Shown: piece by piece, positions 8,400-19,013 of the stretch | How positions within the stretch are numbered: position 1 is the first letter of the stretch | How the letters are laid out: every line of letters begins with the position of its first letter | Origin: Anaeromyxobacter sp. Fw109-5 | GTDB taxonomy: Bacteria; Myxococcota; Myxococcia; Myxococcales; Anaeromyxobacteraceae | DNA length: 64,000 nucleotides | NCBI RefSeq assembly: GCF_000017505.1 | Contig: NC_009675.1 | Span: 2,542,001 to 2,606,000, forward strand | Reading direction: 5' to 3' | Position numbers and translations under genes: made by a program | Notes under the pieces: generated by a model | Seen by the model: only the letters and a program-made list of their open reading frames with translations | Told to the model about the DNA's origin: nothing | Databases searched by the model: none

Positions 8400-8870
8400 C
8401 TACTTCTTCAGCTGCTCGGCGAGGTAGTTCTGCGCGCCGACCTGATCGATCGCGGTGAGCTGGGTCTCGAGCCAGTCGGCGTGCTCCTCCTCGCCCTCCA
8501 GGATCTCCTCGAGCAGCTCCGCGGACCCGTTGTCGCCCTTCTCGCGGGAGAGGGCGATCCCCGCGTTCAGCGCGGCGATGGCGTCCTTCTCGAGCTGGAG
8601 GTCGAGCTGGAACATCTCGGGGACGCTCTCCCCGACGTTGACCTTGTTGTACCGCTGCACGTTCGGAAGCCCCTCGAGGTAGAGGATGCGCGCGATGAGC
8701 TCGTCGGCGTCCTTCATCTCGTCGATGGACTCGTGGCGGAACTTCTCGTACAGCCGCTCGTAGCCCCAGTTCTCGCAGATGCGCGCGTGGAGGAAGTACT
8801 GATTCACCGCGGTGAGCTCGTTGGTGAGCACCTGGTTCAGCAGGTCGATGATCGCGGGATCGCCCTTCAC
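8400..8870 (-). CDS. bfr: Bacterioferritin with an altered ferroxidase ligand
   Basis: 156 residues; the numbering aligns directly with E. coli Bfr. GTG start with a GAGAGGAGAG ribosome site. Four-helix ferritin that stores iron as a ferric mineral in a 24-mer cage. Ferroxidase ligands E18, E51, E94, E127 and H130 are present, as is heme-ligating M52, but the usual H54 is D54 (EMKDADEL instead of EMKHAD). This may change di-iron site chemistry. It diverges from apbE and sits beside the fur-feoB operon, fitting an iron-storage role; the Bfd-like ferredoxin at 9920-10168 is the likely partner for iron release. Confidence 0.95.
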
Positions 8871-8939
8871 GTCGCTCTCCTCTCTCTCGTGGCGCCGCGC
8901 GCGCACGGCGAAGGCGCCTGATATAGGAGCCCCGATCGC

Positions 8940-9923
8940 ATGCCGGCAATCGCCCTGCTGCTCCTCGCGCTCGCCCAACCCACCGGGGGCATCGTCTCGG
9001 AGACGCGCCCCGCGATGGGCGGGGTCGCGACCGTGACCCTCGCCGGGACGACGCCGGAGCGCGCGGCGCCCGCCATCGAGGCGGCGTTCGCGATCTTCGA
9101 GCGCGTCGAGTGGTCCATGAACGAGTGGCGCGCCGGCTCCCCGCTCGCGCAGCTCAACGCGGAGGCGGGCCGGGGCTGGGTCGCGCTGCCCGGCGATCTC
9201 TGCGAGGTCCTCTCCATCGCCAGGGCCGGAGCGGGCCGCACCGGCGGGCGCTTCGACCCGACCTGGGCAGCCCTCTCCGACGTGTGGCGGTTCGACGGGA
9301 GCGCGACCGCGCCGCCTCCCGACGACGCCGTGCGCTCCCGCTGCGCGCTCGTGGATCATCGGCTGCTCGAGCTCCGCCCCCGGGGCACCGCCTGCGAGGC
9401 GAGACTCGCGCGCGCCGGCATGCGGCTCGGGCTCGGCGGGCTGGCCAAGGGTTGGGCGCTCGACTCCGCGGCCCGCGCGCTCCGCGCGCTCGGCCACGCC
9501 GACTTCCTCCTCCAGGCGGGAGGCGACCTCTACGCGGCGGGGACACGGGGCGGAGCGCCGTGGCGCGTCGGCGTGCGCGATCCCCGCGGGGGACCGCTCG
9601 AGGAGCTCGCGGAGGTCGACGTCCGCGATCGGGCGTTCTCCACCAGCGGCGACTACGAGCACGCCTACGTCGTGGGCGGCAGGCGCTACCACCACCTCAT
9701 CGATCCTCGCACGTGCCGTCCGGCCACCGCGTCGCGCTCCGTGACGGTGCTGGCTCGAAGCGCCGTGGACGCGGAGATCCTCGGCAAGGCGCTCTTCGTC
9801 CTCGGTGGAGCGCCGGCGCTCCGCGAGGCGGCGCGCTGGGGCGCGGAGGCGCTGGTCGTGGCCGCCGACGGGGCAGTGCTCGCGAGCCCCGGCCTCCGCG
9901 TCCTTCCCCCGGCGAAGCCCTAG
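8940..9923 (+). CDS. apbE: ApbE FAD:protein FMN transferase
   Basis: 327 residues with a hydrophobic exported N-terminus ([10 protein letters not shown]). ApbE signatures include ETRPAMGG, the [10 protein letters not shown] nucleotide-binding loop and the SGDYEHAYV...YHHLIDPRT metal-site region. The enzyme transfers FMN from FAD to a Thr/Ser in a D-x4-SGA(T/S) motif of extracytoplasmic proteins. The obvious substrate is the FMN-binding protein at 11167-11730. The gene points towards the end of that operon, and its stop overlaps the stop of the Bfd-like gene in a shared CTAG. A GATATAG stretch just upstream could be a -10 element. Confidence 0.94.
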
Positions 9924-10168
9924 GGCGTCTTCAGCCGGTCCGCCGCCGCGCGGAGGGGTACCGTCTCCGACGGCGCGTCCGCTCGGGACGCCTCGCGCGC
10001 CGGGACCGGACGAGGCTCGGCGAGGATCCGGGCGATGCTGCCGCGGCAGCACCCGCAGCACGTGCCGGCGCCGGTCGCGACGCCGATCGCTTCGACCGAG
10101 CGGGCGCCGCCGTCCCGCGCGGCGCGGATGGCTCGATCGGACACCGCACGGCAGATGCACACGATCAC
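9920..10168 (-). CDS. Bfd-like [2Fe-2S] ferredoxin
   Basis: 82 residues, GTG start overlapping the upstream membrane gene's stop (GTGA). The first 50 residues match the BFD/Fer2_BFD fold: VCICRAVSD at the start and a later TCCGCC cluster provide the C-x-C ... C-x2-C ligands. The C-terminal 30 residues are a low-complexity tail. Bfd proteins reduce the heme of bacterioferritin to release Fe(II), which fits bfr about 1 kb away. As the last gene of the FMN/porin operon it could instead feed electrons to the membrane pair; both roles are inferred. Confidence 0.88.
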
Positions 10169-10701
10169 TCGACCATCTCCTGGGCCGCCGCGGCGGCCGA
10201 GTCCGTCCGGAGCGGGGCCTCGCGTCGAGCGCGCGCCCCGCCGCGGGCGGGAAGGAACACGGCGCCGAGCAGCGCCGCCCAGGCCAGGAGCGTCAGCTCG
10301 AGCAGCGCGAACGCGGCCACCTTCGCCGGCGCGAGCGCGGCTCCGAGGTAGCGCACCCCGAACGATGCGGCGATCCCGGCCAGCGCGGCCCCGAACGAGG
10401 TGGCCGCCAGGGCGCGGGCGACGCGCGCGGGGAGCGCGCGGGCGAACGAGACCACGTGCACGGCGGCGAAGAGCACGAGCGGGATCGCGGCGAGGTGCGG
10501 GACGGCCACCTCGAGCAGCCCGGCCAGGCTCTTGGGCGCCGCGAACCGCTCGGCGTCTCCCAGGTAGAACGCGCGGACGCCCGCGGCGCTTCCCCCGAGC
10601 TTCAGCGCGAACAGGGCCGCCGCGCTCCCGGCCTGCACGAGGAGGAAGGCCGCGAAGGCGAGCGCGGGGAGCCGGAACGGCGCCAGGCGGGGATCACGCA
10701 C
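10165..10701 (-). CDS. Four-helix membrane protein, paralogue B
   Basis: 178 residues with about four hydrophobic helices (near 12-32, 65-88, 98-118, 125-148) and a basic tail. No named family was recognised. It is a visible paralogue of the gene immediately upstream: both have an AFY(L/R)G motif near residue 45-50 and a histidine at residue 69 at the start of helix 2; this copy has a second histidine at 82. GTG start overlaps the upstream gene by 8 bases. The context (flavinylated protein, ferredoxin) suggests a membrane electron-transfer subunit, perhaps binding heme or quinone through H69. Confidence 0.8.
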
Positions 10702-11170
10702 GCGCGTCCCTCCCCGCCCGGACTCGCTCGACGGCGACGGCGGCGAGCAGGGCCCACATCGCCGCGGTCGCGGCTGCGAAGGTCGCGACCCGGAGGCCCC
10801 CGAGGTCCGGCCGGGCGACGATCGCGAACGGCGCGAACAGGTCGGCGAGCGTCGCGCCGAAGGCGGCGCCGATCAGGATGGCGCGCACGCCGTCCAGGCG
10901 CGGCGCCACCGCCGCGAGCGAGGCGAGCATGAAGAGCACGAACCCGTAGACGAACGCGCCGACGTGGACCTCCTCCCAGAGCGCCGCCGCGGAGAGCGGC
11001 TCGCCCCCTTCGACTCCGCGGTAGAAGGCCTCCACCTCCACCGGCGAGAGGCCGCCGGCCTGCAGCCGCTGCGCCGCCAGTCCGGCGAGCGCGAGCGCCG
11101 CGAACACCAGGAAGAGGGCGACGGGGGCGCGCGCCCGCGCGGCCGGGGAAGGCTGAACGAGCCACCTCAT
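10694..11170 (-). CDS. Four-helix membrane protein, paralogue A
   Basis: 158 residues with four predicted membrane helices (about 15-33, 68-90, 97-117, 125-148). Related to paralogue B by the FYRG motif at 49-52 and the single histidine H69 (WEEVHVGAF). The ATG overlaps the stop of the FMN-binding gene (ATGA). Tandem, unequal paralogues with one shared histidine suggest a heterodimer. Function unknown; electron transfer between the membrane pool and the flavinylated protein is my inference from the operon. Confidence 0.8.
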   Translation of the reverse strand: MRWLVQPSPAARARAPVALFLVFAALALAGLAAQRLQAGGLSPVEVEAFYRGVEGGEPLSAAALWEEVHVGAFVYGFVLFMLASLAAVAPRLDGVRAILIGAAFGATLADLFAPFAIVARPDLGGLRVATFAAATAAMWALLAAVAVERVRAGRDARA

Positions 11171-11730
11171 CGCCCCACCCCCATCGCCTCGCGCAGCGCC
11201 TGCAGGAGCCAGCGGGACTCCTCCGCCACCCCGCGTGCGGTGAGCGTCGCCCCGCTGATCGGCGCGATGTCCTGGCCCACGGCGAGGCGATCGCCTCCGC
11301 CCTTCCCGCCGAACTGCGCCAGCCAGCGATCGCTCGGCCGGTACTCCGACGGCTCGAGGAAGGCGAGCACCGTGATCTTGCGGAGGCGCCCGTCGGGCTC
11401 GAAGGCGAGGGACAGCGTCTCGCGCTTCGTCCGCACGACGTGGCTGTGGATCACCGCGTAGCCGAGCACGTCCCCGGCGCGGCGAGCCGTGTAGAACGTG
11501 ACGAGCCGCTCTCGCACCCGCGCGCGCGCCAGCCGCTCGATGCGGCCCACCATCTCGTCGGTCAGGATCACGTCCTTGGCCATGATCTCGTCCGCGGCGG
11601 GGAACACCGCGCGGATGGCGCCCTCCTCCTTCCCCGCCACGCCTGCCGCCGGGGAGGCGGTGGCGGGGAGGAGGAGGGCCACCGCGAGGAGCGTCGCGCG
11701 CCCAATCGAGGCTGGTCTCGCTCGGTGCAT
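11167..11730 (-). CDS. Exported FMN-binding (flavinylated) protein
   Basis: 187 residues from the ATG preceded by GAGGG; an in-frame GTG at 11745 is a weaker start. A signal peptide (about 6-30) is followed by an FMN_bind domain. Its end carries D154-IAPI-S159-G-A-T162, the consensus D-x4-SGAT site where ApbE attaches FMN through a phosphoester to the Thr (codon at 11245-11247). The protein should act as a one-flavin electron carrier outside the cytoplasm. It lies between a porin gene and two membrane genes in the Fur-headed operon, and apbE is about 1.2 kb away, so a role in periplasmic iron reduction is plausible. Confidence 0.9.
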   Translation of the reverse strand: MHRARPASIGRATLLAVALLLPATASPAAGVAGKEEGAIRAVFPAADEIMAKDVILTDEMVGRIERLARARVRERLVTFYTARRAGDVLGYAVIHSHVVRTKRETLSLAFEPDGRLRKITVLAFLEPSEYRPSDRWLAQFGGKGGGDRLAVGQDIAPISGATLTARGVAEESRWLLQALREAMGVGR

Positions 11731-11747
11731 GACGCCCTCGTTCACGC

Positions 11748-13049
11748 TCAGAACACGTACCCGACGCCCAGGTTCACCTGCTCGGTCGTCGAGTCCGCCT
11801 CGTCCTCGCTGCGCTGGTAGTCCGCCTTCACGACCACCGTCGGGATCGGCTTGTAGGTGAGGCCGGTGGTCCAGATGGTCTGGTCGAGCGCCGGGTTCCG
11901 GGCGAGCCCCGACGGCACCTCGTCGTGGAGGTCGAGGGCCTCGTAGCGGACGAACGGGGAGAGCGAATGACCCGAGTCCGGGAGCGCGAGCGCGAGCACG
12001 TCGTACGCCACCTCGGCGTAGCCGCCGCGGGTGCGCGAGCCGAGGACGACGCCGTCGTCCTGCAGCGCCGACAGCCGCGCCGCGTCGTCGAGCCAGCCCA
12101 TCGCGTAGAGCCCGCGGAGCTGGAGCCCGCGCCAGGAGAGCTGCGCGTGCGCCTCCGCGAGCGTCACGTCCGCGTCGATCTCACCCTGCGCGTCCTCCGC
12201 GCCCTGCCCCGCGCCCCCGCGGTAGAAGGCGCCCGCGACGGCGAGCGGCCCGGCGTCGTAGCCGACGCTCACGACCCCCGCGAAGCTCTCCGCGGGGGCC
12301 TCGCCGCCGCCGGTGCGCGCGCCGCGGAGCCAGCTGCCGGACGACAGGTCACCGCTCGCGCCGTTCAGGCCGATCAGCCCGTACGCCTTGTAACGGAACG
12401 GCCCCTTGGCGCCGTGCACGCCGACCCCGTTCTCGTTCCAGGTGGTCGGGATGAGGTTCCGCTCCACGGCCGGCCGGAACACGCCGTGGAAGAAGGGCGG
12501 CTCGTGCAGCTCGTTCACGAACCCCATCGGCACGAGCACGTTGCCGACCCGGAGCCCGATCGCGTCGGAGAGCAGGAAGTCGAGGTACGCGAACTCGACC
12601 GACAGCTCGCTCTGGTGCTCGAACTCGACCTCCGCGTTGAACAGGATCCTCGGCGTGAAGCGGTAGCCCGTGTAGAGGACGATCCGGTACAGGTCCGAGT
12701 CGGATGGGCGATCGTTCAGGAAGTTCCGGTAGAAGATCTCGCCGTAGCCGCCGATGGAGAGCCCCTTCGGCGCGAAGTAGACCTTCGACGCCGCGGGCCC
12801 CATCCCGCCGTAGGAGTCGTACTCCACGTCCCGCAGCCCCATCTCCAGCTTCAGGCGGCGGAGCTCCTCGGCCAGCGCCGCGACCTCGCTCTTCGTCGCG
12901 GCCTCCTCCTTCGTCGCCTCGTCCTTCTGCGGCCTGGTCGTCGCCTCCTGGGGGCGCTCCTCCCGCCCGGGGGCGGAGTCGTCGGCTCGCGCCGCGGACG
13001 CGGCGAGGGTGAGGGCCAGGGCTACTGTGATGTTGACTTTCATTCTCAC
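11748..13049 (-). CDS. OprO/OprP-like outer-membrane porin
   Basis: 433 residues. Signal peptide ending near SAARAD, then a charged coiled-coil stretch (about 25-75) like the periplasmic trimerisation segment of OprO/P porins. The rest alternates in the beta-barrel manner and ends in a C-terminal phenylalanine (GVGYVF), the BAM recognition signal. The family usually carries phosphate or other anions; here the iron and flavin context suggests passage of a ferric complex, which is inference. It is 70 bases downstream of the DtxR-type gene and 17 bases before the FMN-binding gene. Confidence 0.85.
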   Translation of the reverse strand: MRMKVNITVALALTLAASAARADDSAPGREERPQEATTRPQKDEATKEEAATKSEVAALAEELRRLKLEMGLRDVEYDSYGGMGPAASKVYFAPKGLSIGGYGEIFYRNFLNDRPSDSDLYRIVLYTGYRFTPRILFNAEVEFEHQSELSVEFAYLDFLLSDAIGLRVGNVLVPMGFVNELHEPPFFHGVFRPAVERNLIPTTWNENGVGVHGAKGPFRYKAYGLIGLNGASGDLSSGSWLRGARTGGGEAPAESFAGVVSVGYDAGPLAVAGAFYRGGAGQGAEDAQGEIDADVTLAEAHAQLSWRGLQLRGLYAMGWLDDAARLSALQDDGVVLGSRTRGGYAEVAYDVLALALPDSGHSLSPFVRYEALDLHDEVPSGLARNPALDQTIWTTGLTYKPIPTVVVKADYQRSEDEADSTTEQVNLGVGYVF

Positions 13050-13119
13050 GTGGGGCCCGCGCAGGGGCTCTCTCCGGTGTTCGCTGCGAGGTGCACTGCG
13101 TGCTGCGGTCAGGTGACGG

Positions 13120-13806
13120 TCAAGGCGAGCGCGCCTCGACCGGCTTCACGTAGATCTCGCCGGCGATCTCGGGATCGAGGGCGATGGTGGTCTCGCCGAT
13201 CTCGATCACGTAGGACGGCGAGCGCTGGTGGAGCCGGATCGTGCTGCCCGGGATCACCCCGAGCGCGGCGAGCCGGTCCATGCGGTCGTGGAACTTGGGC
13301 GCGATGAAGACGATGCGGCCCGAGGCCCCCAGGTCGAAGCTGCGGAGCCCGGTCACGAGCGGCCGGAGCGTCTTCTGGAAGGTGCCGCAGCACGGCCCCT
13401 GCGGGATGGGCTTCCCGTGCGGGCAGGTGGGCGGGTGGCCGAGCAGCGTGCAGACGGAGTCCGTCGCCTCCGGCGAGAGGATGTGCTCGAGCTCGCAGGC
13501 CTGCTGCTCGGTGGCGCCCTCGCCGAGCTCGAGCACGTCGCGGAAGAGGCGCTCCGCGAGCCGGTGCCGGCGCACCACGTCGCGCGCGCGAGTCTCGCCC
13601 TGCTCCGTGAGCTGAACGCGCGCCCCGTCCAGCCGGACGAGGCCGATCCGCGCGAGCTCCTCGAGGTCGGCGCTGCCCGCCCCCGGCGCGTGCTCGGCCT
13701 CCGCCGCGGCCAGGATCTGGTCCGCCGCGTCGCGGCCGGCCTCGCGCTGCGTGTAGGCGGTCTGCAGGATCTCCTCGAGCCGCCGCGTCGCCATCCCGTC
13801 ATTCAC
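13120..13806 (-). CDS. DtxR-type metalloregulator with C-terminal FeoA domain
   Basis: 228 residues, GTG start overlapping the upstream zinc-ribbon stop (GTGA); an ATG twelve bases in is the alternative. Residues 1-80 are a winged-helix region, 80-140 the dimer and metal domain with ACELEHILSPE and a CPHGKPIP...CC segment typical of iron-dependent MntR/IdeR-like proteins, and 150-225 an SH3-like FeoA domain. No separate feoA was found here, so this domain may also serve FeoB. Iron-responsive control of the downstream porin and flavin genes is likely but no operator was identified. Confidence 0.88.
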   Translation of the reverse strand: MNDGMATRRLEEILQTAYTQREAGRDAADQILAAAEAEHAPGAGSADLEELARIGLVRLDGARVQLTEQGETRARDVVRRHRLAERLFRDVLELGEGATEQQACELEHILSPEATDSVCTLLGHPPTCPHGKPIPQGPCCGTFQKTLRPLVTGLRSFDLGASGRIVFIAPKFHDRMDRLAALGVIPGSTIRLHQRSPSYVIEIGETTIALDPEIAGEIYVKPVEARSP

Positions 13807-14030
13807 GGAGAGTCGCTCCTCGCTTCCTTGTCACGCTTCAGCCGGTCGATGAGGCGCCGGAGCCCGCCGGCGAGCCCGGCCTCCTGCGGGAAGCTGTAGC
13901 CGCACGAGGGACAGCACACGACGCGGCAGCCCCGCGCCATCGGGCAGCTCGGCCGGCACCCCTGCCCCGCCGCGTCGAAGCGATCCCCGCAGAGCGGGCA
14001 GGTCTCGATCCCCGGGACGAGCGCGGCCAC
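13803..14030 (-). CDS. Small cysteine-rich zinc-ribbon protein after feoB
   Basis: 75 residues, GTG start with a perfect AGGAGG ribosome site. Eight cysteines are packed into residues 11-43: CPLC, then three spaced Cys (GC, SC, GC), then CCPSC, followed by an amphipathic basic helix. This suggests one or two zinc or iron-sulfur sites. It lies nine bases after feoB, the position often taken by FeoC-like accessory proteins, but it lacks a winged-helix FeoC fold. A metal-sensing or FeoB-interacting adaptor is an inference. Confidence 0.8.
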   Translation of the reverse strand: MAALVPGIETCPLCGDRFDAAGQGCRPSCPMARGCRVVCCPSCGYSFPQEAGLAGGLRRLIDRLKRDKEARSDSP

Positions 14031-14039
14031 GGGCGCCTC

Positions 14040-16109
14040 CTAGTACAGCCACCGCATGAGCTGGTTCACCACCGCCCCGACGCCGAACGCGAACGGCACG
14101 ATGAATCCCATCATCGCCACCCCGGTCTTCCAGCCGCGCTCCTTCAGGATCATGAAGAAGTTCGCGATGCAGGGGATGAACAGGGTGATCGTGACGAGCG
14201 CCACCACGATCTCGATCTGCATCGAGCGCGTGAGGCCGCCCGCCTCCATGAACGGCTGGTAGTGCAGGAAGAGCCCCGCGGCCGCGTAGTCGCGCCGCAG
14301 GAAGCCGAGGATGAACGCGGCCGCCGCCTCCTTGGGCAGGTTCAGCACCCCCACCACGAGCGGCGCCGCCGCGCGCTCGAGGAACCCCAGGCCACCGAAG
14401 CGATCGAGCACGTAGAGGATGAGCGTGCCCACCACGAAGAGGGGCAGCGCCTCGCGGAGGTACCACTCGATCCGGGCGAGGGTCTTCACCGCGATGTTGC
14501 CGGCCTGCGGCACGCGCAGCGGGGGAAGCTCCAGCATGAAGTCCGAGCCGCGGCCGGGCAGCACCTTCGCGGCGAGCCAGCCGACGAGGAACAGCACCAG
14601 CACGACCGTCGCGCCGAACCAGACGGTCGCAGCGACCGGGAGCTTGGAGGTCATCGCGAAGATGACCGCCATCTGCGCGCTGCACGGCACGCCGAGCGCG
14701 AGCAGGAGCGTCACGATGACGCGCTCCTTCCTCGTCTCCATGATGCGCGCGGTCATGGTCGCCATGGTGTCGCAGCCGAGCCCGAGCACCATGGGGAGGA
14801 CCGCCTTGCCGTTCAGCCCCATCCGCTTGAAGACCTTGTTCAGCATGACGGCCAGGCGCGGCAGGTAGCCGGAGTCCTCGAGGATGCTGAACGCGATGAA
14901 GAAGGTCGTCACGATCGGCAGCACGATCGCGATGCCGTAGGAGAGTCCCATCGAGACGACCCCGTACTTCCCGATGAGGATCCCGTCGTGAAGCTGAGGG
15001 TCGGGCCCGGGCGGGCCGACGAGGAAGCTCTCGAACCGCCCGTCCGGCGCGAGGAGCCGCACCGCGGCCGTGACCCACGGCACGAGGTACTCCGCGAAGA
15101 CCGTGTTCTCGAGGAAGTCGACGAGCGTGCCCGCGCCGAGCACGCCGACGAACTCGTACGCGGCGTAGAGGACCGCGGCGAGGATGGGGATGCCCCACAG
15201 CGGGTGGGTGGACCAGGCGCCGAGCTTGCGGGCGAAGCCGCTCGAGGCGGAGGCCCCGCCGCGGGTCACCACGGCGTCGTGCAGCCGGTCCGCCGCCGCG
15301 AGCCGCTGGCGCGCGACCACGAAGCGGAGCGACTCGGGGTAGCGCGCCGCGACCGATCGGCGGACGGCGTCGATCCGCGAGAGGTCCGCCTCGGACACGT
15401 GCGCCACGAGGTGCGGGCGGAGCGACTCGTCGCCCACGAGCGCCATCACCGCGAGCGCGCGCGGGCCCATGCCGCCTTTGGGCATGAGCGGCGCGAGCTC
15501 CGCGAGGGCGCCCTCGATCGCCGCGTCGTAGCGAGGCCTGAACGGCGAGGCGCGCCCGCCGGCGTCGATGCGCTGCTGCAGCGCCGCCAGCCCCTGCCGC
15601 TGCACGGCGACGGTCGGGACCACGTCGACGCCGAGCTCGCGGGAGAGCCGCTCGACGTCGATGCGGAACCCGCGGCTCGCCGCCTCGTCCGCCATGTTGA
15701 GCGCGAGCGTGAAAGGGATCTCCGCCTCGGCGAGCTGCGTCGCCAGCAGCAGGCCTCGGCGCAGGTTCTTCGCGTCGCAGACCTGGACGGCCGCGTAGCC
15801 GCGCTCGGTGAGCAGGATGTCGCGCGTGACCTGCTCGTCCTCCGACATCGGGATGAGGTTGTTCGTCCCGGGCGTGTCCATCACGTGCCAGGGGCGGCCC
15901 TCGATCGTGGCGGAGCCGCGCGTCACCTCGACGGTGGTGCCCGGGTAGTTGGAGACCGTGACGTACTTGCCCGTGAGCGCGCCGAAGAGCGCGCTCTTCC
16001 CGACGTTGGGGTTGCCGACCAGGATGATCGCGCGGCTCGCCGCGACGACTTGCTTGCGTTCGAGGTCGCCCGCGCGCGCGGAGGCGGAGGCGGGAGCGGG
16101 AGGGGTCAA
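14040..16109 (-). CDS. feoB: Ferrous iron transporter FeoB
   Basis: 689 residues from a TTG that overlaps the fur stop (TTGA); no ATG or GTG lies between it and the first domain. The N-terminal G domain has GNPNVGKS (G1), DTPGTN (G3) and NMAD (G4). The membrane part has two Gate (nucleoside-recognition) domains with conserved segments such as GLGCDTMA and GVPCSAQM. It imports Fe(II) from the periplasm, gated by GTP hydrolysis. FeoA is supplied, if at all, by the DtxR fusion two genes downstream. Co-transcription with fur makes it Fur-controlled. Confidence 0.95.
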   Translation of the reverse strand: MTPPAPASASARAGDLERKQVVAASRAIILVGNPNVGKSALFGALTGKYVTVSNYPGTTVEVTRGSATIEGRPWHVMDTPGTNNLIPMSEDEQVTRDILLTERGYAAVQVCDAKNLRRGLLLATQLAEAEIPFTLALNMADEAASRGFRIDVERLSRELGVDVVPTVAVQRQGLAALQQRIDAGGRASPFRPRYDAAIEGALAELAPLMPKGGMGPRALAVMALVGDESLRPHLVAHVSEADLSRIDAVRRSVAARYPESLRFVVARQRLAAADRLHDAVVTRGGASASSGFARKLGAWSTHPLWGIPILAAVLYAAYEFVGVLGAGTLVDFLENTVFAEYLVPWVTAAVRLLAPDGRFESFLVGPPGPDPQLHDGILIGKYGVVSMGLSYGIAIVLPIVTTFFIAFSILEDSGYLPRLAVMLNKVFKRMGLNGKAVLPMVLGLGCDTMATMTARIMETRKERVIVTLLLALGVPCSAQMAVIFAMTSKLPVAATVWFGATVVLVLFLVGWLAAKVLPGRGSDFMLELPPLRVPQAGNIAVKTLARIEWYLREALPLFVVGTLILYVLDRFGGLGFLERAAAPLVVGVLNLPKEAAAAFILGFLRRDYAAAGLFLHYQPFMEAGGLTRSMQIEIVVALVTITLFIPCIANFFMILKERGWKTGVAMMGFIVPFAFGVGAVVNQLMRWLY

Positions 16110-16636
16110 GGCTGCTCCTCGCCGCGAGCGCCCTTCCGGCACCTCGCGCAGCGGCCGTACAGCTCGAGCTTGTGGCTCTCCACCTCGAAGCCGTGGCGGC
16201 GCGCCACGATCTCCTGCAGCGACTCGATCTTCTCGTTCGCGAACTCGACGATGTCGCCGCACCCCACGCAGATGAGGTGGTCGTGGTGCGCGCGACCGGC
16301 GGACGGCTCGTAGCGGGTCTGGCCCTCGCCGAACTGCCTCGCCGACGCGAGGCCGCACTCGACGAGCAGCTTCATGGTCCGGTAGACGGTCGCCACGCTC
16401 ACGCGCGGGTCGTCGCGCCGGGCCCTCGTCACCAGCTCTTCCACGGTGACGTGCCCCGAGAGGCCGAAGAAGGTCCGCACGATCCGCTCGCGCTGGCGCG
16501 AGTGCTTCAGGCCCTTCGCCTCGATGTACGCGGTGAGCGCCGCCGTCGCGGCGCCGGCGTCGAGCGGACGGTGCTGGTGCCCGCGCGCGGCGTCGCGCGG
16601 CTTGCTGCCCCGGAGGTCGTGGTCGGCCTGGTTCAT
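16106..16636 (-). CDS. fur: Fur family ferric uptake regulator
   Basis: 176 residues, longer than typical Fur (about 140) because of a 25-residue N-terminal extension. Winged helix with DPRVSVATVYRTMKLL, then the metal-binding region HHDHLICVGCGDIVEF and a second CARCRK pair near the end. With Fe(II) it should repress its own operon through the Fur box lying directly against the ATG. It is the first gene of the fur-feoB-zinc ribbon-dtxR-porin-FMN run. A peroxide (PerR) or zinc (Zur) role is possible, but feoB linkage favours Fur. Confidence 0.92.
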   Translation of the reverse strand: MNQADHDLRGSKPRDAARGHQHRPLDAGAATAALTAYIEAKGLKHSRQRERIVRTFFGLSGHVTVEELVTRARRDDPRVSVATVYRTMKLLVECGLASARQFGEGQTRYEPSAGRAHHDHLICVGCGDIVEFANEKIESLQEIVARRHGFEVESHKLELYGRCARCRKGARGEEQP

Positions 16637-16638
16637 TC

Positions 16639-16679
16639 TGATAACGATTCTCAGTATCAGACCGCCGCGTCCCAGGCAA
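16639..16679 (-). promoter_or_regulatory. Fur box and promoter of the fur-feoB operon
   Basis: Bases 16639-16659 read TGATAACGATTCTCAGTATCA, an imperfect 21-base palindrome resembling the Fur consensus (TGATAAtgATaaTCATTATCA), starting 3 bases upstream of the fur ATG. On the minus strand a TTGCCT (-35, 16674-16679) and GATACT (-10, 16653-16658) are separated by 15 bases, short but plausible, with the -10 inside the box. Fe-Fur binding would block this promoter, giving autoregulation and iron control of feoB. Confidence 0.7.
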
Positions 16680-16695: not shown

Positions 16696-17316
16696 TCAGC
16701 GCCGCGCCGCGCCGCCCCAGTGGCGCCGCCAGCGCTCCGCCGCCTCCGGGCCTTCTGCACCGAGATCCCTGCCGGCCAGCGCGACCAGGGAGGCGTGCGC
16801 CTCGCGCCGGACCGACGGGGAGGGATCATCGAGCAGCTCGATCAGCCGGGGGACCAGGCGCACGGCCGACTCCCTCGGCCGGTGGCGTGCGAGCTCGGCG
16901 GCGATGGCGCGGACCTCGGGCGCCTCCGAGCGGAGCGGCGCCGTGAGATCGATCGGCGTCCCCGCCCGATCCACGCGGTAGGCCTGGGCGAGCTCGATCA
17001 CCACCCCGGCGATGACCCCCAGGACGAGGACCATCAGCCCGACCTGCACCAGCGCCTTCCCCGCCGAGTAACGTCCGGCCCGTACGAGGACGAACCGGTA
17101 CCCGGCGTACCCGGCGATGAACAGGGCCAGGATGGCGAGCGGGACCGCGATGGTGGCGCGGGGCCAGCCGCCCATGGCCACCGATCGGGCGAGCTCCGGC
17201 ACGCCGACGAGGGTCAGCACCGCGGCGGCGAACAGCAGCGCGAACAGGATCCAGCGGAGGGAGCGGATGGAGGCGGGTATCCGGCCGTTCCCGCCGTCCT
17301 TCGTCCCGGTTGCCAT
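16696..17316 (-). CDS. Membrane protein with C-terminal HEAT-like repeat
   Basis: 206 residues. Three hydrophobic helices (about 20-42, 52-72, 82-108) are followed by a soluble helical domain in which LVPRLIELLDDPSPSVRREAH matches a HEAT repeat. It ends in an Arg-rich tail. Function unknown; HEAT repeats usually mediate protein contacts. Its 3' end lies 37 bases from the fur box and its start faces the next gene head to head, so it seems to stand alone. Confidence 0.8.
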   Translation of the reverse strand: MATGTKDGGNGRIPASIRSLRWILFALLFAAAVLTLVGVPELARSVAMGGWPRATIAVPLAILALFIAGYAGYRFVLVRAGRYSAGKALVQVGLMVLVLGVIAGVVIELAQAYRVDRAGTPIDLTAPLRSEAPEVRAIAAELARHRPRESAVRLVPRLIELLDDPSPSVRREAHASLVALAGRDLGAEGPEAAERWRRHWGGAARR

Positions 17317-17411
17317 GCGCGGCAGTGAACCACGCGCGCCGGCGAGCGGCAACCGCGATCGCCTTGCGATGCTTGACTCGCGAGGCGGCCCGGCGCAGGT
17401 TCCGCCGGGCC

Positions 17412-19013
17412 ATGGCCGAGATCGATCCCGAGCTGCTCGAACGCGTCGCCCGCTGGTGCGCCGACGCCGGCCGCCATGCTGGCGCGCGCGAGATCCGCGC
17501 TGCCCTCTCACCGCTCTCCTGGGACGAGCTCCTCGCCGCGCGGGCGCTCCTCGCCGATCCGCCGCCCGCGACGCCGCTCGGACCGTACGCCCTCGCCGAC
17601 ATGGCGCGCGGCGCGTCCGCGGACGCGGCCGCTGAGCGCGAGCGTGGCGCGCAATACCCGCGGGAAGAGGCGGACGAGCCCGTCACTGCCGCCCCGGCGG
17701 CGGCGCCGTCGGCGCCCGCGGGGAGCCGAGGCAAGGGCAAGAAGAAGCGCGCCGCGGCCGTCGTGGTCCACCGCGCGCGCGACCGCGTCGTCGCCGCGAC
17801 CCCGGAGCCGCCCGCGCCGCCGCCTTCGCTCGACGAGCTGCGCCGCGACGAGGGGCGCACCGTCCTCGAGCGGATGCTCCGCCGCCACGGGGGCCGACGC
17901 GCGGCGATCCTGTCGGAGGTCCAGGCGGGGTGGCGCGCCCCGGGGGATGCGCCGCCGACCGAGACCCATCTCGACGCGCTCCTCGACCACCACGGCCTGA
18001 GGCGTGCGTTCGACCGGCGCGAGCACGACGAGCTCTTGCACGCGCTCCGCGCCTCCGGCGGCTCGCGCGCCGCCGCCGCCGCTGGCCTCGGGCTCGACGA
18101 GCGCGGACTCGACGCCGCCCTCGCTCGGCTCGGCGCCGTCGCCGACGCGGAGCGAATCCGCGAGGAGCGACGCACCGATCTTCGCGCGCGCGCGACCCTC
18201 TCCGAGCGCGTCCACCTGCTGCTCGGGCAGGAGGACCGGTTGCGTGACCTCGGCCTCCTCGGCGAGTTCGAGGCGGACCTGGGCGCACGCCTGCCGGAGC
18301 ATCTGCGCGCGCTCCGCACCGGCGGCGAACCCCTCGCGCAGGCTCTCTCTCGCAGCCTCTCGTTGCCGCCGGCCGCGGTCGCCGCGCTGTCGTCCCGGTT
18401 CGGCCTCGGCGTGGATGGGGCGAGCGCCCACTCGCCCGGCCGGGAGGGCGCGCGCGAGGAGCGCCGGCTGGGAGCCCCGCGACGTGAGTTCCGCCCGGCG
18501 GGCGCCCGCCCGCCAGGCCGCCCAGCAGGCGGATCGCGCGGGGCGGGCTCCTCGTCCCCGGCAGGCAAGCCGTCGCGATTCGGCGGCACCTCGCGCCGTG
18601 CGCCAGGTGCCTCGGCGGAACGGTCCGGCACGCGCGCGGGCGCACGCGCCGAAGCGCCTCGCAGCGGTCCTGGCCCTCGCAGCGGTCCCGGCCCTCGCAG
18701 CGGTCCCGGCCCTCGCAGCGGTCCCGGCCCTCGCACCGGCCCCGGCCCTCGCAGCGGTCCCGGCCCTCGCAGCGGTCCCGGCCCTCGCACCGGCCCCGGA
18801 CCTCGCACCGGCCCCGGACCTCGCACCGGCCCCGGACCTCGCACCGGCCCTGGCCCTCGCACCGGCCCTGGCCCCCGCACCGGCCCTGGCCCCCGCGCCG
18901 GTCCCGGACCTCGCACCGGCGGCGGACCTCGCACCGGCCGGCACGGAGGACCGCCCAGAAACTCCCCTGGACCAGGGTCGCGGGGGCGCGGGCGGCCCCC
19001 TCGGCGGACGTGA
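17412..19013 (+). CDS. Unknown protein with PRSGPG tandem-repeat tail
   Basis: 533 residues from ATG 17412; the reading frame is open further upstream but that part overlaps the divergent gene's promoter region. The N-terminal half is helical with many Arg, Asp and Leu and includes a Lys/Arg-rich patch (GKGKKKRA). From about residue 350 it becomes disordered and Gly/Arg/Pro-rich, and residues 416-511 are 16 consecutive six-residue units PR(S/T/A)GPG. No family was recognised. The cationic, RGG-like tail suggests nucleic-acid or polyanion binding. Confidence 0.75.
   Translation: MAEIDPELLERVARWCADAGRHAGAREIRAALSPLSWDELLAARALLADPPPATPLGPYALADMARGASADAAAERERGAQYPREEADEPVTAAPAAAPSAPAGSRGKGKKKRAAAVVVHRARDRVVAATPEPPAPPPSLDELRRDEGRTVLERMLRRHGGRRAAILSEVQAGWRAPGDAPPTETHLDALLDHHGLRRAFDRREHDELLHALRASGGSRAAAAAGLGLDERGLDAALARLGAVADAERIREERRTDLRARATLSERVHLLLGQEDRLRDLGLLGEFEADLGARLPEHLRALRTGGEPLAQALSRSLSLPPAAVAALSSRFGLGVDGASAHSPGREGAREERRLGAPRREFRPAGARPPGRPAGGSRGAGSSSPAGKPSRFGGTSRRAPGASAERSGTRAGARAEAPRSGPGPRSGPGPRSGPGPRSGPGPRTGPGPRSGPGPRSGPGPRTGPGPRTGPGPRTGPGPRTGPGPRTGPGPRTGPGPRAGPGPRTGGGPRTGRHGGPPRNSPGPGSRGRGRPPRRT
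18657..18944 (+). repeat. 18-bp coding tandem repeat, 16 units
   Basis: Sixteen head-to-tail 18-base units of the type CCTCGCAGCGGTCCCGGC, encoding PRSGPG or PRTGPG. Units 1-4, 6 and 7 have AGC (Ser); 5 and 8-13 have ACC (Thr); 14 has GCC (Ala); 15-16 diverge. The unit length is a multiple of three, so copy number can change without a frameshift. There are no spacers, so this is not CRISPR. Confidence 0.95.

Follow-up and report, generated by a model that had tools for sequence, protein, structure and literature searches.

We analyzed a 64,000-nucleotide stretch (the window; positions 2,542,001–2,606,000) of the complete genome of the soil bacterium Anaeromyxobacter sp. Fw109-5 (5,277,990 bp), in which a minus-strand run of genes leads from fur and feoB to a porin, an exported FMN-binding protein, two paired membrane proteins (TM1 and TM2) and the ferredoxin Bfd. 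We favor, with modest confidence, the reading that the porin, the FMN-binding protein, TM1, TM2 and the FMN transferase ApbE constitute a Fur-repressed iron-acquisition cassette: a periplasmic flavin ferric reductase with an outer-membrane pore of its own. Judged by comparison across genomes, the porin, FMN-binding protein, TM1 and TM2 genes together with apbE are a separate, self-contained cassette (the flavin block, or module). We found this gene set described nowhere in the literature searched.

Gene Content and Units of the Run

The features of the cassette are as follows; H1, H2 and H3 are conserved histidines of helix II of the membrane proteins.

11748–13043, minus strand: outer-membrane porin, an N-terminal coiled stretch followed by beta-strands; no Pfam match
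11167–11730, minus strand: exported FMN-binding (RnfG/NqrC-like) protein, flavinylation predicted at Thr162 (SGAT)
10694–11170, minus strand: TM1, four-helix membrane protein retaining H1 only
10165–10701, minus strand: TM2, a TM1 paralogue retaining H2 (H69) and H3 (H82)
8940–9923, plus strand: apbE, FMN transferase with a signal peptide, convergent to the run; PF02424, E 3e-67
13029–13047, minus strand: Fur box 2, at the head of the inserted module and overlapping the porin start codon; 14/19

All genes claimed in an earlier reading of the window (the original prediction) were present where it had placed them, on the minus strand except for apbE and with overlaps or tiny gaps, and apbE and bfr adjoin the run as described. 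A 4-bp overlap joins fur to feoB, and 9 bp separate feoB from the gene of a Cys-rich protein, which in turn overlaps the dtxR-feoA fusion; the genes of the FMN-binding protein, TM1, TM2 and Bfd each overlap the next. The description of the run as nearly gapless thus holds for most junctions, the sole sizeable gap being the 76 bp between dtxR-feoA and the porin gene, with the second, weaker Fur box. A sigma-70 promoter scan found none, and the result of a terminator scan was at chance level.

Gene order alone suggests the single operon that had been proposed, but comparison gives three units of different age. The run divides into parts of different origin: the feo operon, the porin–FMN-binding protein–TM1–TM2 cassette with apbE, and bfd with bfr. 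One long operon of single origin was ruled out by synteny.

Distribution and Probable Insertion of the Cassette

The FMN-binding protein was searched for in 146 Myxococcota genomes and the porin profile in 195, and about 60 loci were then read. In these, the FMN-binding protein was accompanied by one or two four-helix membrane proteins or by a DUF4405-like one, and both the porin and apbE were present in nearly all of its loci. The block, with the same four-part logic, was found in at least 14 Myxococcota genera, and also in Ideonella, Bradyrhizobium and Methylocystis. Each of the eight Anaeromyxobacter genomes examined (window included) has it behind fur–feoB–Cys–DtxR/FeoA; by protein comparison, Anaeromyxobacter soli and A. 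terrae are close relatives (85% identity). In every other genus examined the block lies elsewhere and not behind a feo operon, for instance between obg and pfkA-like genes in the sister genus g3 (L042–L044; gene names assigned by eye). Genera g2–g6 of the family encode fur–feoB–Cys–DtxR/FeoA with a Fur box at the syntenic position, with the same genes on either side and without the block (L145–L149, L151); the cassette was therefore most likely inserted behind the feo operon in the Anaeromyxobacter lineage only.

Homologous modules lying away from iron genes, beside some other substrate system, had been named in the original prediction as evidence that would count against it. The modules do lie away from feoB, but not away from Fur control, and no other substrate system was found in the place of feoB. 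A purely accidental neighborhood of the ferrous iron operon and the flavin module, each regulated by Fur but not acting together on one substrate, would agree with an adjacency confined to one genus and with the module keeping a Fur box of its own. Since the adjacency extends to every Anaeromyxobacter genome examined and the products are complementary, we consider such a coincidence fairly unlikely.

An exporter set consisting of a TetR-like regulator, an MFS pump and an HlyD-type protein, in L051 also a TolC-like protein (names assigned by eye), was observed near the flavin block or the bfd–bfr pair in three genera (L039 4195–7438, L051 118–5072, L146 10904–13999). It is possibly a linked chelator exporter, or a chance neighbor. 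In Myxococcaceae-type loci (L050, L053, L054, L123, L127, L131) the block occurs with lipoprotein-like families of about 183, 234 and 342 residues, which had no Pfam match (L050 tested) and no similarity to imelysin; in the pairs compared, there was no support for these families as divergent imelysin, ApbE or di-heme oxidoreductase (DHOR).

Predicted Fur Control of the Cassette

The original prediction gave only the Fur box before fur and missed the one at the head of the module. In most other Anaeromyxobacter species the same place scores 13–15/19. We took, for each flavin-type porin operon, the best consensus match near the porin start or near the start of an upstream operon gene. A match of at least 14/19 was found in 22 of 28 such operons and at none of the 437 other gene starts of these loci, of which 1.1% reached 13/19. 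Taking the best of several starts slightly favors the operons, and species of one genus are not independent. Outside Anaeromyxobacter, 15 of 18 Myxococcota loci from about 11 genera have a box of at least 14/19, though far from feoB, and this bears out the proposed link to iron. The plasmid loci of alpha- and betaproteobacteria (L056, L058, L059) had no such Fur box. Fur control, as predicted from these sites, is conserved with the block and not with feoB.

Predicted Flavinylation of the FMN-Binding Protein

Counted from the ATG at 11730, the SGAT residue of the FMN-binding protein is Thr162, as originally predicted, and a signal peptide was seen by eye in the sequence. The window protein alone scores 17.4 bits, which is below the Pfam cut-off of 22; FMN_bind (PF04205) matches 11 of 12 members of the family, and the family profile matches the RnfG chains of solved Rnf complexes (9eri_G, E 2e-14). 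The [S/T]GAT motif is retained in nearly all homologues.

The apbE gene is the single match in the genome, and the FMN-binding protein is likewise encoded by a single copy; it is therefore very likely that this ApbE has no other FMN_bind substrate. Among 26 genomes, apbE was found in 16 of the 17 with the FMN-binding protein and in none of the nine without it, the sole apbE-less genome of the 17 being a fragmented assembly (G025). The conserved motif and the co-occurrence of the two single-copy genes argue for the ApbE-dependent flavinylation that had been proposed.

The TM1/TM2 Membrane Pair

Neither TM1 and TM2 nor the single or fused homologues tested matched any Pfam or NCBIfam family above cut-off, and the pair falls outside the known membrane-partner families of flavinylation (NapH-, MsrQ-, PepSY-, DsbD- and NQR/RNF-like, DUF4405). 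TM1 and TM2 are paralogous: TM1 aligns to TM2 in L043, the pair is fused into one eight-helix protein of 332 residues in L046, and a single-copy version is present in many genomes. Helix II of all 10 single-copy proteins contains the pattern E-x2-H1-x-H2-x12-H3. The pairs divide these histidines: in all 14, TM1 has H1 and lacks H2 and H3, and TM2 has H2 and H3 and lacks H1. In the tree, TM1 and TM2 sequences, the fused halves included, form separate clades, consistent with one duplication. On a simple reading, an ancestral homodimer with ligands shared over its interface gave rise to an obligate heterodimer of TM1 and TM2, which the complementary split of H1 versus H2/H3 in every pair predicts. 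The division of the histidines makes the pair a clear-cut example of paralogue subfunctionalization.

The AlphaFold2 model of TM2 (pLDDT 69) shows a bundle of four helices, and both His69 and His82 lie on the helix 59–86. The positive-inside rule predicts a periplasmic position for H1 and H2 and a cytosolic one for H3. Other loci have, in the slot of the pair, a small membrane protein with weak similarity to DUF4405 or to cytochrome b561. One DUF4405 protein was shown to bind heme b, and genes of the DUF4405 family are found clustered with apbE (PMC11334425). Because such proteins take the same slot and a DUF4405 protein binds heme b, TM1/TM2 is by analogy probably a heme-b electron carrier. 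The four-helix family as a DUF4405 homologue was rejected (hhalign probability 2.7% against the DUF4405-like set used here).

The Porin Family

The porin family profile (A2) matches in 74 of 195 Myxococcota genomes. The AlphaFold2 model of the window porin is poor (pLDDT 46); it matches OmpC-type porins with E 1e-6 and shows an OmpC-like barrel only. The same family heads porin–imelysin–di-heme oxidoreductase operons in most of the Myxococcaceae-like loci examined, and such operons were also found in plasmid records of Parabacteroides, Prevotella and Pseudoalteromonas. In Bacteroides thetaiotaomicron, a porin/thiol oxidoreductase/peptidase M75 locus, compared here at the level of the whole locus, is induced 63–324-fold by iron depletion (PMC10434189), and imelysins have been tied to Fur and iron uptake (PMC3143127). 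Imelysin (PF09375) had no match in the genome of the window. That the family heads imelysin/di-heme iron operons agrees with the part of the original prediction that makes the porin an iron-related outer-membrane protein; ferric complexes are its putative cargo.

Porin and redox protein side by side also recall porin–cytochrome conduits. Anaeromyxobacter respires Fe(III), and the two could serve extracellular (dissimilatory) metal reduction as a flavin-based counterpart of MtrCAB. Fur repression, however, suits assimilation rather than respiration, the module is spread over many Myxococcota and the three proteobacterial genera named above, and its porin family is common to imelysin operons; we regard this role as very improbable.

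A locus on an Ideonella plasmid (L056 5460–9847) encodes an annotated cytochrome c peroxidase followed by the porin, the FMN-binding protein, ApbE and a membrane protein. It is a possible hybrid of the di-heme and flavin versions.

Proposed Function and Relation to FeoB

At low iron, the exported protein would receive a covalently bound FMN at Thr162 from ApbE. TM1 and TM2 would form an obligate heterodimeric electron carrier of the inner membrane, with heme b probably held by H1 of TM1 and H2/H3 of TM2, and would draw electrons from quinol or from the cytosolic side to the periplasmic flavin. The flavin would then reduce ferric iron or ferric complexes admitted by the dedicated porin. Import of Fe(II) would proceed through the Fur-controlled FeoB in Anaeromyxobacter and elsewhere through the host's own Fe(II) importer, while Bfd would work with the neighboring bacterioferritin.

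Several points weigh against this ferric reductase cassette. For all members, ferric reduction, heme binding and flavinylation are predictions from genes and sequences. No known cytochrome was matched by the TM1/TM2 sequences, as the DUF4405 comparison illustrates; a structure search with the TM2 model gave only generic four-helix bundles with no match at E ≤ 0.001, and known cytochromes were neither found nor excluded. The three histidines of a pair do not simply fit two bis-His hemes. The porin box of the window is weak, and coding constraint could contribute to it because it overlaps the start codon. Finally, FeoB was undetected, both by profile and by BLAST with the window FeoB, in seven block-bearing genomes (G144, G099, G094, G105, G138, G112, G142).

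Because of these seven genomes, the block appears to be independent of FeoB, and feeding FeoB specifically would be optional. Nramp was clear in two of the seven, distant in one and absent from four. In Anaeromyxobacter no Nramp was found and FeoB adjoins the block, which makes FeoB the natural importer there. The flavin reductase feeding FeoB of the original prediction is thus plausible here but not general, its adjacency to feoB being limited to Anaeromyxobacter; reductase activity itself is a predicted property.

The FeoB-less genomes could also be explained if TM1/TM2 were itself an inner-membrane Fe(II) permease, with iron handed over as Fe(II) by the flavin protein and bound by the conserved Glu and His of helix II at its periplasmic end. 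The conserved E-x2-H-x-H at this helix end, periplasmic by the predicted topology, would suit it, as would the four genomes lacking both FeoB and Nramp and the one with only a distant Nramp. However, the slot is occupied elsewhere by the DUF4405/b561-like protein, being that of known heme-b proteins beside apbE (PMC11334425), and FeoB is present in Anaeromyxobacter. We therefore find a permease distinctly unlikely and retain the electron carrier.

Comparison with Known Systems

To our knowledge, Fe(III) reduction ahead of FeoB uptake is unexplained in most bacteria. The cassette is a compact, single-copy, genetically separable candidate for this step in an iron-reducing genus, with a clear prediction for each part. 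It joins three lines described separately: flavinylation with iron assimilation, Fur-controlled orphan porins, and imelysin/di-heme operons.

Flavinylation beside iron transporters is an established theme, known for VIT1, P19/FTR1, PepSY-like and MsrQ-like systems (Meheust et al. 2021, PMC8238504), and Fur control was reported for some of these clusters. The window resembles them (PepSY-like; MsrQ-like with VIT1; P19/FTR1 with FMN_bind) in ApbE, an exported FMN-binding protein, an inner-membrane electron donor and co-location with iron genes. It differs in a membrane component outside the classes named there, in FeoB as the adjacent transporter and in a porin heading the operon; the word "porin" appears nowhere in that paper. 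With the DUF4405/FezC membrane cytochromes (PMC11334425), the pair shares small, His-bearing membrane proteins next to apbE. FezC was proposed to form its heme site by homodimerization, whereas TM1 and TM2 form a degenerated heteropair with no sequence homology to the DUF4405-like set used.

Porin–imelysin–di-heme oxidoreductase operons of Bacteroidota and Myxococcaceae (PMC3143127, PMC10434189) are likewise iron-regulated periplasmic redox operons headed by a porin of this family; here a predicted flavinylated protein and a membrane electron carrier replace imelysin and DHOR. The Fur regulon of Geobacter and Desulfuromonas includes Fur-boxed orphan porins (psp) and fur-feoB1-R (PMC545781), and is likened here by description only, as hypothetical porins with Fur boxes and a fur-feoB operon in iron-reducing deltaproteobacteria; flavin proteins were not noted.

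Within the literature searched, new features are a flavin block with a porin at its head, Fur control that this block has in its own right in different genera, the alternation of the block with imelysin/DHOR behind a single porin family, and a membrane pair with divided histidines. More tentatively, and with slightly more doubt than belief, we suggest that TM1/TM2 is a new class of flavinylation-associated membrane electron carrier derived from a duplicated homodimeric four-helix heme-b protein. With ApbE, the RnfG-like flavoprotein and the dedicated porin, it would make up a Fur-controlled ferric reductase cassette that can stand beside any Fe(II) importer, as an alternative to imelysin/di-heme proteins behind the same porin.

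The feo Operon and the bfd–bfr Pair

The other two units of the run contain the following features.

16640–16658, minus strand: Fur box 1, before fur; GATACTGAGAATCGTTATC, 16/19 against the 19-bp consensus
16106–16636, minus strand: fur, ferric uptake regulator; PF01475, E 2e-34
14040–16109, minus strand: feoB, Fe(II) transporter, second, Fur-boxed copy; TIGR00437, 381 bits
13803–14030, minus strand: Cys-rich ribbon protein of the feo operon, 75 aa; no family above cut-off
13120–13806, minus strand: DtxR C-terminal domain fused to FeoA; PF02742, E 1e-25, and PF04023, E 2e-13
9920–10168, minus strand: Bfd, [2Fe-2S] ferredoxin; PF04324 (Fer2_BFD), E 1e-11
8400–8870, minus strand: bfr, bacterioferritin; TIGR00754, 211 bits

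As originally predicted, the run starts at a Fur box: box 1 is the only site with at most 3 mismatches (at least 16/19) in the whole 5.28 Mb genome, and a reversed-pattern control gave 0. The G domain, Gate and FeoB_C parts of FeoB (PF02421, PF07670, PF07664) were above cut-off, as was the FeoA domain (PF04023). The gene for the Cys-rich ribbon protein keeps its place in every family member checked. The other feo set of the genome, at 4.80 Mb, is a canonical feoA-feoA-feoB and, unlike the window copy, has no Fur box of at least 14/19 within a 14-kb stretch (genome 4797000–4811000, L138). A related feo operon was found in another family (L152). By this comparison, the feo operon is old, Fur-boxed and syntenic across the whole family.

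In the sister genus g2 (L146), DtxR-FeoA is followed by an outer-membrane-like protein, a small c-type cytochrome, bfd and bfr, with no flavin block. Among block-bearing relatives, bfd was confined to L052 and the three closest genomes (that of the window, L036 and L037), and it is absent from five of the seven other Anaeromyxobacter loci with the module. The original prediction had counted Bfd as a member of the electron module; this is not supported, and Bfd as the module's electron donor was rejected as the default. Because L146 has the pair at this site without the block, Bfd probably serves bacterioferritin and is not part of the electron chain. The order Fur box–bfd–porin in L052 leaves a small door open for Bfd in the module. 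Like other bfd–bfr pairs, this one has Bfd beside bfr and is linked to iron; it differs in having apbE and the flavin module around and between the two genes.

In two sister-genus loci (L146 8646–9729, L147 4174–5260), the slot behind dtxR-feoA holds an outer-membrane-like protein of 244–248 residues and a small c-type cytochrome, as if a heme version stood in place of the Anaeromyxobacter flavin block.

Flavin-for-iron swapping is established for flavodoxin and ferredoxin. It was also proposed for flavinylation (PMC8238504). By this precedent, Fur might induce a flavin protein that under iron shortage takes over from a heme (c-type) carrier, the periplasmic redox task being one other than iron import, and the outer-membrane protein with a c-type cytochrome in the slot of g2 and g4 would fit. 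However, the dedicated porin, common to imelysin iron operons, travels with the module, and close relatives without the module (L148, L151) also lack a heme counterpart in the same gene order. We consider an iron-sparing chain of this kind unlikely and keep to the ferric reductase cassette.

Beyond the run, the window contains a 567-residue open frame (17310–19013, plus strand) with about 16 copies of an 18-bp repeat at its end (18657–18939). The repeat codes for a Pro-Gly-Pro-Arg-[Thr/Ser]-Gly-like tail and causes long spurious frames on both strands.

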